64,000 nt of DNA from assembly GCA_009780035.1 (NCBI GenBank), contig WRAU01000001.1, forward strand, positions 62,001-126,000, in the 5' to 3' direction. Origin of the DNA: Alphaproteobacteria bacterium (GTDB lineage Bacteria; Pseudomonadota; Alphaproteobacteria; WRAU01; Hepatincolaceae). Made by a program: the position numbers and the translations under genes. The notes beneath the pieces were generated by a model. It had not been told where the DNA came from. It ran no database searches and saw only the letters and a list, made by a program, of their open reading frames with translations. How positions within the stretch are numbered: the stretch's first letter is position 1; each line of letters starts with the position of its first letter. This document shows positions 1,310 to 58,244 of the stretch, piece after piece.

Positions 1310-1888
1310 ATGATAAATTTAGAATTAGAAAGAGATATTAAAAAATACAGCACAGCTCTTTTAGATCTGGCTAAGTCTCAAAATTTACTGGACACCGTAA
1401 ATTCTGACATGCAAATTATGGCAGATGTTTTCGCAAAAATTTATTCCTCGCGCTCGGGTAGCGAAGAATACACAGAAATTGCAAAAAAATTTCTGGTAAC
1501 ATCTAACGCCAAGCAAATGGAAATTATCAAAAACATTTTGCAAGAGTTGAATATCAGCAAATTGGTTTCTAACTTTGTAATGCTTTTATTAATTTCAAAA
1601 AAAATCACTATATTAAGGCATTTAGTAGAATCTTGGGATTCTTTGTTTTTAACTTACAGTGGGTATTTTAAAGTATCTGTTGCCAGTGTTATTCCTATAA
1701 GCGAACAGCAGGAGGCAAAAATCAAAGGAATTATTGCAAAATCTCATGGTGAAAAATTCTTTTTAGAAAAAACAATAGATCCAACCATCTTAGGTGGTTT
1801 AGTAATTAGGCTAAAAAATCAAGTTATTGATGATAGTCTGGCGAGTAAAATCAAAAAGATTGAGAATAATGTAAGGGGAAGCATATAA
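1310..1888 (+). CDS. atpH: F1F0 ATP synthase subunit delta
   Basis: Encodes a 192-residue delta (OSCP-like) subunit, which joins the F1 head to the peripheral stalk of ATP synthase. The length and helix-rich N-terminal half fit the family. The C-terminal segment has the conserved pattern ending [25 protein letters not shown] at 1297-1300 serves the ATG. The stop codon overlaps the atpA start in the arrangement TAATG, which implies translational coupling. First gene of the F1 operon. The F0 genes are not in this window, as is usual in alphaproteobacteria where F1 and F0 operons are separate. Confidence 0.95.
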
Positions 1889-5877: not shown

Positions 5878-5978
5878 GAATTGAATCTACTGAGCTTTCT
5901 ATTCATAAGTTTTGTCCCTCATGTGGTTTTACACTACGGAGAAAAACCTCTAAATATAAAGCTAAATAGATTCAATCC
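5878..5978. repeat. Palindromic element, family P, copy 1 (atpD-atpC)
   Basis: About 100 bases forming a long imperfect hairpin. The outer stem is ATTGAATCTA (5880-5889) with TAGATTCAAT (5967-5976). Inside, GAGCTTT pairs with AAAGCT and a central arm carries GTCCCTCA. The 3' half ctaaatataaagct recurs at 29313-29411 and 29833-29931 and in diverged form at 61523-61610. It starts right after the atpD stop codon, so it is transcribed inside the atp operon. It may affect mRNA stability or expression of atpC. Confidence 0.8.
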
Positions 5979-16744: not shown

Positions 16745-16788
16745 TATTATAAATATGGAAATAAAACAAAAATTAAACTATATTATAC

Positions 16789-16872
16789 AGTATGATATAA
16801 TTAAATAACAGAGGTTGTATGTATTTATATAGTATGATATAATTAAATAACAGAGGTTGTATGTATTTATAT
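16789..16872 (+). repeat. 42-bp perfect tandem duplication containing promoter, RBS and start codon
   Basis: Two identical 42-base copies, 16789-16830 and 16831-16872. Each holds an extended -10 (TGATATAAT; TATAAT at 16796-16801 and 16838-16843), a Shine-Dalgarno-like AGAGG and an ATG with the first four codons of the HAD gene. The first ATG (16819) opens a seven-codon frame, MYLYSMI, that stops at 16842. The second ATG (16861) opens the real gene. The exact identity points to a recent event. Confidence 0.9.
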
Positions 16873-29309: not shown

Positions 29310-29312
29310 ATA

Positions 29313-29411
29313 TTGAATATCTTGGCTTTCTACTCATCAGTTTTGCCTATCATGTATTTAAACATACACTAAGGAGCAAAACTTCTAAATATAAACCTTA
29401 ATAAATGCAAA
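29313..29411. repeat. Palindromic element, family P, copy 2 (before rnpB)
   Basis: Aligns with the elements at 5878 and 29833. Shared blocks: ttgaatat, ggctttctactcat, agttttgcc, and the 3' part gcaaaacttctaaatataaa. The outer right arm is decayed (aataaatgcaaa instead of aatagattcaaa), so the outer stem is weak while the inner TTTTGC/GCAAAA stem is kept. It begins four bases after the M16 stop codon. Confidence 0.7.
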
Positions 29412-29466: not shown

Positions 29467-29968
29467 TTGTCAGATGGTTGGGTAATTGCTGTTTTTTATT
29501 AAACAGAGGAAAGTCCGAGCTTCGCAGAAACAAAAGACCGGATAATTACCGGCTAGGGCAACCTAAGAGAAAGTGCCACAGAAAATATACCGCCCTAAAT
29601 AATGTGCTTGCTTTAAGTATATGATTAGGGTAAGGGTGAAATGGCGGGGTAAAAGCCCACCGCTTTTCTGGCAACAGAAAAGGCAGGGTAAACCTTCTTT
29701 GAAGCAAGACCAAGTTAAATAGAGTCTGTCAGCCTTAAAAACTGGCAAACACCCATGTTTCTGAGGGCTATTATGGTAGGTCGCACGAGGTTATTGGCAA
29801 CACTAACCCCAGATAAATAATTACCGGGCAACTTTGAATATTTTGGCTTTATATTCATAAGTTTTGCCCCTCACATACTACGGGTATGCTACGGGACAAA
29901 ACTTCTAAATATAAAGCTCAATAGATTCAAAGCTGCTTACAGAACTCGGCTTATAGACCATCTGACGA
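29467..29968 (+). ncRNA. rnpB: RNase P RNA (catalytic subunit), with inserted palindromic element
   Basis: Type A bacterial RNase P RNA. P1 is formed by GTCAGATGGT (29469-29478) and ACCATCTGAC (29957-29966). P2 is GGTAATT (29481-29487) with AATTACC (29819-29825). The P4 strands are seen as GAGGAAAGTCCG (29506-29517) and the conserved ACAGAACTCGGCTTA starting at 29939. About 100 bases at 29833-29931 are a family P palindrome placed between P2 and P4 (3' side). Without it the RNA would have the normal length of about 400 bases. It processes tRNA 5' ends together with RnpA protein. Confidence 0.93.
29833..29931. repeat. Palindromic element, family P, copy 3, inside rnpB
   Basis: 99 bases beginning tttgaat and ending attcaaa (perfect outer arms). 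Internal stems: GGCTTTATATT with AATATAAAGC, TTTTGCCCC with its complement, and a central CATAC/GTATG. It is the best preserved copy of the family and is positioned in the junction between P2 and P4 of RNase P RNA, where it should fold as an independent extra hairpin. Confidence 0.88.
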
Positions 29969-29989
29969 TTAAAATTTGGAGACCTTTTT

Positions 29990-30099
29990 CGTCATGCCGT
30001 GCTACGACACGGCGTCCATTCGCAGAATGTTGCAACCGATGAGTTGCATTTTGTTGAATAATCATGGAATTGGATGCTGTGTCGTAGCACGGCATGACG
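29990..30099. repeat. REP-like composite element with 29-bp inverted arms
   Basis: Arms at 29990-30018 and 30071-30099 are inverted copies with only two mismatches; each arm is itself the gtcatgccgtgctacgacacggc...tcca palindrome. The 52-base centre has a small hairpin (gttgcaa...ttgcat). The right arm contains the first ATG of rsmH. Size and structure resemble a miniature inverted-repeat element, but no terminal target duplication is evident. Confidence 0.8.
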
Positions 30100-31062
30100 A
30101 GAATGATAACACTTAACCTAGCACATCTTAAACAAAGCCGTCCGCATTTTCCTGTTTTGATTAAAGAAGTTTTAACTGCCTTAGATCTTTCGCAAGAAAA
30201 TGGGATGCAGAAAACTTACCTTGACTGCACCTTTGGCGCAGGAGGCTACAGCACTTATATCTTAGAAAATCCTAACACGCAAGTAATTGCCATAGATAGA
30301 GATGAAACTGTGCAGCCATTTGCAGAAGATCTAACCAAAAAATACCCCGATAGGTTTAAATTTTTTTTAGAAACATTCTCTAATTATCCCAAAATCTTAG
30401 ATTCTCTTAACATTAAAGTTGACGGTATTATTATGGATTTAGGATTTTCTTCCATGCAAATTAATAATTCAGCCCGGGGATTTTCTTTTAAAAATGACGG
30501 CGATTTATCTATGGCTATGGGTTTAAACAAAATAACTGCTTACGATTTTATAAATAAAGCTGAAGAATCACTTTTGGCAGATGTTATTTTCTATTATGGC
30601 GAAGAGCACAAGGCAAAGCAGATTGCTAAAAAAATTATCTATAAAAGGGGACTTGAGGAAATAAAAACCACAAAGCAGCTGGCAGATATTGTGCGTGGTG
30701 TAGTTGGCGGCAAAGGCAGCATAGACCCAGCTACTAAAACTTTTCAAGCTATTAGAATTTATATCAATGATGAATTGCATGAATTGCAGACAGCTTTAAA
30801 AAAGGCTTATGATTATCTTAATCCTCATGGGAAACTGCTTGTTGTGAGCTTTCATTCCCTTGAGGATAGAATTGTGAAAGATTTTTTTAACGAAAATGGT
30901 GAGACAGTAAAAAAATTTACTAATTATAAACTAAATCCTGCTACAACTAATTCTAAGTTTAAAATATTAACCAAAAAGCCGATTTTACCATCAACGGAAG
31001 AAACTGCCATTAATCCGCCGTCAGGATCTGCAAAATTAAGGGTAGTTGAAAGGATATTATGA
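30094..31062 (+). CDS. rsmH: 16S rRNA (cytosine1402-N4)-methyltransferase
   Basis: 322 residues, first gene of the division and cell wall (dcw) cluster; mraZ is absent. The SAM-binding motif is DCTFGAGGYS (about residues 46-55). The other blocks are DGIIMDLGFSSMQ, the stretch ARGFSFKNDGDLSM and the terminal SFHSLEDRIVKDFF. The first ATG (30094) and the alternative ATG at 30103 both fall in or next to the right arm of a REP-like element. Neither has a strong Shine-Dalgarno sequence, so the start is uncertain by three codons. It overlaps ftsL by four bases. Confidence 0.95.
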   Translation: MTRMITLNLAHLKQSRPHFPVLIKEVLTALDLSQENGMQKTYLDCTFGAGGYSTYILENPNTQVIAIDRDETVQPFAEDLTKKYPDRFKFFLETFSNYPKILDSLNIKVDGIIMDLGFSSMQINNSARGFSFKNDGDLSMAMGLNKITAYDFINKAEESLLADVIFYYGEEHKAKQIAKKIIYKRGLEEIKTTKQLADIVRGVVGGKGSIDPATKTFQAIRIYINDELHELQTALKKAYDYLNPHGKLLVVSFHSLEDRIVKDFFNENGETVKKFTNYKLNPATTNSKFKILTKKPILPSTEETAINPPSGSAKLRVVERIL

Positions 31063-36963: not shown

Positions 36964-36969
36964 AAATTT

Positions 36970-37065
36970 TAGCCTTTTTGCTTTTCTATGACATATCTTA
37001 GGTATTTATGTATTATCATACACCGCATACCTAAGATACACCATATAAAAACAAAAGTTTCTAAA
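36970..37065. repeat. Hairpin element between mraY and murD
   Basis: Perfect 12-bp arms TATCTTAGGTAT (36994-37005) and ATACCTAAGATA (37027-37038) with a 21-base loop. Weaker pairing extends outward, and the right side ends acaaaagtttctaaaac, which resembles the 3' half of family P. It starts just after the mraY stop codon like other family P copies. It is either a diverged member or an unrelated attenuator hairpin. Confidence 0.5.
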
Positions 37066-56612: not shown

Positions 56613-57782
56613 TTAATCAATTATAACTTCGGCAATCAGCAGGTTGAAGCAATAATCCAGCCACTCTGTAAGGATTTTTATATCCTGCGGATCAACCGTA
56701 GCTCCTCCCCAAATCCTTATACCCAACGGGGCTTTTTTGTAAGATTTTATATCGTAGGCAATTTCATTTTCACTAAGATAGTCAAAAAATTTCTTCATAA
56801 AAACTTTCTGTTTTTCCTCAGGCATGGCTAAATATTTACTGTCAGTAATTTTTAAGCATAAGGCAAAGTAAGATTGTTTGGTTTCATCTTCGCATAAGAA
56901 ATCTATCCAATTTGTTTCTGCAACCCAAGACTTAATTACATTAAAGTTTTCAATCGCCCTAGCAAAACAAAATTTACTGCCTCCTTGCGATTCTGCCCAA
57001 TTAAGAGCATTAATAAAATCAATAGTGCATAAAAGCGAAGGAGTATTAATCGGGCTGCCGCCTAAAACATCATATTTAACGCTGCCGTCATAATTTTTTA
57101 AGCGATACAGCTGCGGCATAGCTCTGTTTGGTGTGAACTCTTCCAGTCTTTGAACTGCTCTTGGCGATAAAATCAGCATGCCGTGCTGGGCTTCGCCGCC
57201 TAAGCATTTCTGCCAAGAGAAAGTCAGCACATCTATTTTTTGCCAGTCAATTTTTTTAGATAATACATAAGAGGTGCTATCGGCAATAATTAATCCTTTC
57301 CTATCATTCGGTATTCGTTCAAATTCGTTAAAAACTACGCCGCTTGTGGTTCCGCATAGGGTAAATAAAACATCATGATTAGCAAAATCTGCATCCATAG
57401 TATTAGGGTATTTTCCAAAAGGCGCTATAAAAGAGCGGAGATTATTAATTTTAAGCTCATGCTCTAAATTGTGCTGCCACATGTAACCGAATGCGTCCCA
57501 AGCAATGCAGTCAACAGGGATTTTTCCAAGCAGATTCCAAATGGCAATTTCAATGGCTCCGGTGTCTGATCCTGGTGCAATAATTACTTTATAGTTTTGC
57601 GGAATATCTAAAATAATTTTAGTTTTTTCAATTAATGATTGAAAAAGCTCAGCCGCCTCAGCACTGCGGTGCGATCTGCCCAGCAGCTGATGATTAATAT
57701 CCACACTAGGAAAGGTTGGATATTTCTTAGCCGGACCCGGAGAGAATCTAACATTTTTTGGTTTTTGCGTTGGCTTGTTCAT
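56613..57782 (-). CDS. serC: Phosphoserine aminotransferase (class V)
   Basis: 389 residues of the longer SerC type found in alphaproteobacteria and methanogens. It starts with a proline-rich FSPGPAKKYP. The PLP lysine lies in SWQKCLGGEAQHGMLILSP, and the segment APGSDTGAIEIAIWNLLG matches the family. It converts 3-phosphohydroxypyruvate and glutamate to phosphoserine and 2-oxoglutarate. serA, usually adjacent in alphaproteobacteria, is not here. It ends four bases from the convergent EptA-like gene. Confidence 0.92.
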   Translation of the reverse strand: MNKPTQKPKNVRFSPGPAKKYPTFPSVDINHQLLGRSHRSAEAAELFQSLIEKTKIILDIPQNYKVIIAPGSDTGAIEIAIWNLLGKIPVDCIAWDAFGYMWQHNLEHELKINNLRSFIAPFGKYPNTMDADFANHDVLFTLCGTTSGVVFNEFERIPNDRKGLIIADSTSYVLSKKIDWQKIDVLTFSWQKCLGGEAQHGMLILSPRAVQRLEEFTPNRAMPQLYRLKNYDGSVKYDVLGGSPINTPSLLCTIDFINALNWAESQGGSKFCFARAIENFNVIKSWVAETNWIDFLCEDETKQSYFALCLKITDSKYLAMPEEKQKVFMKKFFDYLSENEIAYDIKSYKKAPLGIRIWGGATVDPQDIKILTEWLDYCFNLLIAEVIID

Positions 57783-57844
57783 GATTTACCTCTAAATTAA
57801 AATGTTATTATAGCATTTTATTAATTTGAGATAAAGAGGGGAAT

Positions 57845-58157
57845 ATTTAAGTTTGGGTAGTTTATCAGTTCCAAAAGAGAAACCCGATGGTGCGAGTGGC
57901 TGGAATCGAACCGGACTCGGACGGAGCTTGCAGGATTTAAGTTTGGGTAGTTTACCAGTTCCAAAGGGGAAACCCGATGGTGCGAGTGGCCGGAATCGAA
58001 CCGGACTCGGACGGAGCTTGCAGGATTTAAGTTTGGGTAGTTTATCAGTTCCAAAGGGGAAATCCGATGGTGCGAGTGGCCGGAATCGAACCGGACTCGG
58101 ACGGAGCTAACAGGATTTAAGTTTGGGTAGTTTATCAGTTCCAAAGGGGAAACCCGA
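57845..58157 (-). repeat. Tandem array of degenerate tRNA-Leu copies, 90-bp period
   Basis: Downstream of the intact tRNA-Leu (minus strand) lie three near-identical copies, each 86 bases with a 4-base spacer (58153-58068, 58063-57978, 57973-57888), and a fourth 5' half (57883-57845). The 3' parts (T arm, acceptor 3' strand and CCA) are identical or almost identical to the intact tRNA. The 5' parts keep GGAACTG and the anticodon-loop TTAAA but have lost acceptor and anticodon stem pairing. The fourth copy breaks off in the anticodon loop. Motif starts at 57849, 57939, 58029 and 58119 confirm the exact 90-bp period. Confidence 0.92.
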
Positions 58158-58244
58158 TGGTGCGAGTGGCCGGAATCGAACCGGCACGAGCCGAAGCTCA
58201 CAGGATTTTAAGTCCTGGGCGTCTACCAGTTCCGCCACACTCGC
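58158..58244 (-). tRNA. tRNA-Leu (anticodon UAA)
   Basis: 87 bases with encoded CCA. The acceptor GCGAGTG pairs with CACTCGC. The anticodon stem CAGGA/TCCTG encloses CTTAAAA (anticodon TAA). A long class II variable arm TGAGCTTCGGCTCG and the T arm CCGG-TTCGATT-CCGG complete it. A promoter lies upstream at 58288-58261. Confidence 0.97.

Follow-up and report, generated by a model that had tools for sequence, protein, structure and literature searches.

RNase P RNA is an essential ribozyme of tRNA processing. Short tandem repeats (STRRs) in the RNase P RNA of heterocyst-forming cyanobacteria reportedly lie in helix P12. Such repeats were described by Vioque (1997), as cited in PMC2858038, and they resemble the locus reported here in that a sequence repeated elsewhere in the genome occupies a peripheral helix of the ribozyme. 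They consist of short units in tandem, however, whereas the present element is a single 99-nt palindrome in helix P19. In the open-licence literature, searches for a palindromic element within RNase P RNA gave no earlier report, though such reports may exist.

Several other classes of element are comparable in part. REP and BIME elements of enterobacteria are 35-40 nt in length, lie near stop codons and are linked to Y1 transposases. The family described here likewise consists of imperfect intergenic palindromes close to stop codons, but its members are longer and no Y1 match was obtained in its genome. Terminal inverted repeats are shared with MITEs. The intervening sequences of rRNA are also hairpin inserts at the tip of a variable helix in an essential RNA; removal by RNase III is a property of theirs, while the present insert is one of many dispersed copies. 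Rickettsia palindromic elements (RPEs) are known for in-frame insertion in open reading frames (PMC10969869). The RPE parallel drawn in the first-pass annotation of this DNA is partial and one of description: it extends to dispersed palindromes of ~100-150 nt, a reduced alphaproteobacterial genome and tolerance within an essential gene. The parallel fails for the mode of insertion: RPEs enter protein genes in frame, whereas the present family avoids ORFs, abuts stop codons and is oriented with GC skew, the sole within-gene copy found being the one in rnpB.

The rnpB gene and the site of its palindromic repeat

The window is the whole stretch of DNA that was analyzed, 64,000 nt from an alphaproteobacterium of the Hepatincolaceae (contig WRAU01000001.1, positions 62,001 to 126,000 of the forward strand). 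A complete bacterial type A rnpB gene lies at 29470..29969 (+). It measures 500 nt with the insert and scores 264.1 bits against RF00010, and its alignment spans model positions 1-367 with the insert present. A genome-wide search returned this single match and no second rnpB, in an assembly that lacks 1-2% of the genome. The features of the gene referred to below are as follows.

29481..29487, + strand: P2, 5' strand, GGUAAUU, pairing perfectly with 29819-29825
29727..29747, + strand: extra small hairpin between P16 and P17, read directly and present as an insert in the RF00010 alignment
29819..29825, + strand: P2, 3' strand, AAUUACC (AATTACC in the DNA), from the sequence and the RF00010 alignment
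29826..29832, + strand: retained P19 stem, 5' side, GGGCAAC, paired with 29932-29938 in the local fold
29833..29931, + strand: 99-nt palindromic repeat at the tip of P19 (model R1, 103.7 bits)
29932..29938, + strand: retained P19 stem, 3' side, GCUGCUU, from the local fold
29939..29953, + strand: J19/4 and the 3' strand of P4, ACAGAACUCGGCUUA, intact by the RF00010 consensus alignment

The palindrome and the 3' strand of P2 had been assigned to these same coordinates in the first-pass annotation, correctly so by both the sequence and the RF00010 alignment. Its statement that all core helices persist also agrees with the full-length match to the type A model. Despite the insert, nothing is missing from P2, P4 or the conserved core, and in P4 the U of CUCGG (3' strand) is matched by an A in the 5' strand UCCGAGC. 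Its starting point for the 3' strand of P4, 29939, was nearly right; the ACAGAAC that begins there is J19/4, and the strand proper starts a few bases later. What has to be replaced is its description of the site as a short P2-P4 junction bordering the core, since the stretch in question contains P19.

Helix P19 is located just ahead of J19/4 and P4 (PMC13022451) and is present in bacterial type A RNAs (PMC2858038). Among 37 other alphaproteobacterial rnpB genes, the stretch from P2 to P4 is 11-33 nt long in 35 and 4 nt long in two. The same stretch of the window gene is 113 nt long, and the palindrome makes up 99 of them. Most of the P19 stretches listed for alphaproteobacterial relatives form hairpins, and they occupy the same place, between P2 and J19/4-P4, as the arm that is lengthened here by the element. 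Relatives do not carry the long segment as an ordinary helix: in three sister genera of the window's bacterial family the P19 hairpins are 18, 21 and 27 nt. Immediately beside the element, GGGCAAC and GCUGCUU remain base-paired, with two wobbles and a single mismatch; this preserves a short P19 stem with the element at its tip. Judged by alignment and pairing, the element sits at the tip of a peripheral, optional helix of variable length, a location that would direct the insert away from the core, on a helix absent in some relatives.

The insert is predicted to fold as a hairpin of its own. For positions 29819-29945 the folding energy is -44.5 kcal/mol (z = -8.2), a value equaled by 0 of 200 shuffled sequences, and when the full RNA is folded, the extended P19 arm has 42 pairs with a mean probability of 0.94. 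Note that P2 is poorly recovered in the minimum-energy fold of the whole RNA (probability ~0.19), as is usual for a pseudoknotted ribozyme.

The repeat family and its placement

The 99-base element had been proposed to be a dispersed repeat, and the searches bear this out. Using 29833-29931 as query, BLAST gives 24 matching places or strands in the element's own genome, and a covariance model built from 18 copies gives 87 distinct places in 761 kb of that genome. These 761 kb are stretches picked for holding hits, which biases copy density and should not bias position or orientation. With a refined model, at least 126 strand-hits were obtained genome-wide, corresponding to roughly 90 places in the 1.42-Mb genome. 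The rnpB element is 88% identical to locus C17:7606. Three further copies are found in the window.

29312..29411, + strand: second copy (R1, 87.1 bits), starting 2 nt past the stop codon of the gene that precedes rnpB, which is M16 peptidase-like (ORF end 29309)
5881..5976, + strand: third copy (R1, 77.6 bits), directly after the stop codon of a likely atpD, whose C-terminus is full length relative to G003
36968..37065, + strand: fourth copy (R1, 57.5 bits)

Other repeats were also seen. An unrelated palindrome (29986-30103, -74.6 kcal/mol) begins 17 nt past the 3' end of rnpB and extends into the first codons of a predicted rsmH ORF, with about eight similar places in the 761 kb. At 57755-58204 a 180-nt repeat occurs in four overlapping copies, spaced by 90 nt, that reach into a tRNA gene (58161-58244), and a 42-nt tandem duplication (98% identical) is located at 16783-16866.

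Each element is an imperfect hairpin of ~98 nt. Over 53 copies, using 29 tested pairs, 90.7% of cells are paired versus 74.5% in shuffles, and changes on both sides of a pair are found in 263 cells versus 81. The covariation score is 0.473 versus 0.181 for shuffled alignments and is lost when the partner is slid by one to three columns. The family is thus a covariation-supported hairpin. Terminal inverted repeats (columns 1-6 with 101-106) are paired in 78.9% of cells, and five of their six pairs exhibit two-sided changes. The main helix holds 460 Watson-Crick, 30 A-C and 11 G-U pairs, and this scarcity of G-U pairs hints at maintenance of the palindrome as DNA, for example by hairpin-templated correction. 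The flanks of family members are mutually complementary for ~3 nt beyond the model, and no direct target-site duplication is conspicuous by eye. General insertion of the family into the loops of pre-existing hairpins is unsupported, because flank complementarity ends after those ~3 nt; unlike the family in general, the window rnpB has a real stem that continues beyond the element.

With ORFs called by a simple rule, 86 of the 87 copies lie outside predicted ORFs, where intergenic DNA is ~13% of the sequence, and the one remaining copy overlaps an antisense ORF. When the window and the copy-holding stretches were scanned with Rfam, rnpB was the only RNA gene found to have a copy within it. A co-oriented gene lies upstream of 66 copies, and 55 of these start at -7 to +7 nt of its stop codon, a rule to which the rnpB copy is an exception. 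The proteins encoded upstream are as long as their orthologues (median C-terminal difference 0 in 30 comparisons), and on these grounds we rejected elements that insert within genes, truncating them and supplying the stop codon. As an observation in its own right, the stop-codon rule is echoed at RNA genes by copies lying 8 nt past a tRNA gene (L105:12667-12737; region L105:12667-12841) and 13 nt past an SRP RNA gene (L130:3162-3255; region L130:3162-3366). Of the 87 copies, 81 are oriented in accord with the local GC skew (binomial p 7e-18), and many of these have neighboring genes that point the opposite way. This bias suggests that insertion is linked to replication or to single-stranded DNA.

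Could the copies instead be functional hairpins of gene ends, acting in formation of mRNA 3' ends or in translation termination as some REP elements do, with the rnpB copy a stray product of their spread? Their closeness to stop codons, the full-length upstream proteins, and the copies that closely trail tRNA and SRP RNA genes would all fit such a function. Yet where the two conflict, orientation tracks GC skew and not gene direction, and the few G-U pairs of the main helix give no sign of selection on a sense RNA. In addition, the family was undetected at E 0.01 in the sister genera G001 and G003, so a function at gene ends would be dispensable. We consider such a role for the family rather doubtful.

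Searches for a Y1 transposase and for reverse transcriptases identified no mover of the family. The Y1 transposase model (PF01797) gave no match in the window genome and was positive in five control genomes. The one reverse transcriptase found (590 aa, L144:622-2394, at ~114 kb of G000:C3) has a TOPRIM-like C-terminal part and, from domains read by eye, is probably a retron-type defence gene. A group II intron reverse transcriptase was rejected as the mover because this sole enzyme looks retron-like.

Recurrence in relatives and origin of the insert

The 580-nt rnpB of the sister genus G002 (contig CANHGT010000018.1) contains two copies of the family, both antisense to the gene. One is in P12 (L033:1346-1444, E 1.8e-8) and the other is between P16 and P17 (L033:1136-1234, 37.6 bits with model R2), at the same site as the small hairpin at 29727..29747 of the window. 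Only five family members were found in the G002 genome; the chance that two of five would fall in rnpB is ~3e-6 for the whole genome and 2e-4 if ~13% of it is open to insertion. Under the same two assumptions, one of ~92 copies in the window rnpB is unsurprising when taken alone (0.03 to 0.19). The 5' part of the G002 rnpB also occurs as a partial, degenerate duplicate directly upstream of the gene (L033 ~1680-1747, minus strand).

The P12 and P16-P17 regions of other relatives have other, smaller extra hairpins or inserts. In G001, P12 of rnpB carries a 213-nt AT-rich insert (L032:1252-1464), which was rejected as a dispersed repeat, having just one weak partial match elsewhere. In G013, which belongs to another family, P12 of rnpB carries a different dispersed repeat (L035:1253-1390; L150-L155), and one copy of it reads in frame in a purD-like ORF (L153). 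Together with the copies in G002, this repeat suggests that, in this part of the Alphaproteobacteria, repeats land recurrently in side helices of RNase P RNA. Weak matches to the repeat family of the window also come from three genomes outside its bacterial family (G112, G023 and G013), a hint that the repeats may extend beyond one order; the G112 and G013 matches have the central CTCATGTAT...ATACAC motif in common and are also TAG-flanked. The distant member in G112 (L202:1501-1597) lies ~100 nt from the 5' end of a 23S rRNA gene.

We estimate at roughly 85% the probability that a dispersed palindromic repeat has inserted in the P19 loop of a type A RNase P RNA and is tolerated there, with the ribozyme functional. 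A copy of the repeat would have entered the loop of P19, a peripheral helix of variable length, and the near-perfectly self-complementary insert would form an independent rod atop what remains of the P19 stem. Nothing would change in P1-P5, P15-P18 or the conserved core, and the ribozyme would keep working with a long P19. Self-folding would explain why the insert is tolerated. As the first-pass annotation had it, the ribozyme probably functions with an added hairpin domain. We infer from the sequence that the RNA is active with the insert in place and still contains it when mature.

A different fate for the same hairpin would be cutting by an RNase III-like enzyme, leaving an RNA in two pieces joined through P1, P4 and the P19 stem; such cutting would be a compatible addition to insertion rather than a replacement for it. 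A nearly continuous stem of ~40 pairs, similar in size to the intervening sequences of rRNA, could offer a substrate, and the break would lie outside the core. In the local fold, however, internal loops interrupt the stem, its longest unbroken helix is ~10-11 pairs, and nothing in the sequence demands cutting. We regard it as unlikely.

Insertion of a repeat copy also has to be weighed against P19 having grown in place, or against an extension useful to the host (for protein binding or as a folding aid) and held by selection. Either origin would fit the P19 hairpin found in nearly all relatives and the pairing that the insert preserves. Such growth would have to account for 99 nt that are 88% identical to another locus and match an orientation-specific family at many loci, for the mere 18-27 nt of the sister genera at this position, and for the presence of the same family in other rnpB helices of G002; its probability is accordingly small, and the element appears to have moved in. 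A misassembly that placed a repeat within rnpB, of the kind that dispersed repeats can cause, is close to negligible given a gene that lacks nothing to either side of the insert, P1, P2 and P4 that close correctly, a long contig, and an independent MAG of a sister genus that also has the family inside rnpB.

More tentatively, and perhaps against the odds, the insert may represent a widespread and undescribed family of mobile palindromes in alphaproteobacteria of reduced genome, addressed to stop codons and oriented by replication, for which RNase P RNA would be a recurrent target (three insertions in three peripheral helices of two genera).

Implications for RNase P RNA and for palindromic repeats

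If a repeat copy has indeed entered P19 and is tolerated there, the locus reveals where large foreign inserts can be accommodated in an essential ribozyme. Together with the copies in G002, it indicates that one repeat family can enter RNase P RNA repeatedly and at different side helices. The family follows two unusual rules, one of position at stop codons and one of orientation with replication (as read from GC skew). These rules may be used to work out how palindromic repeats spread without a known transposase.
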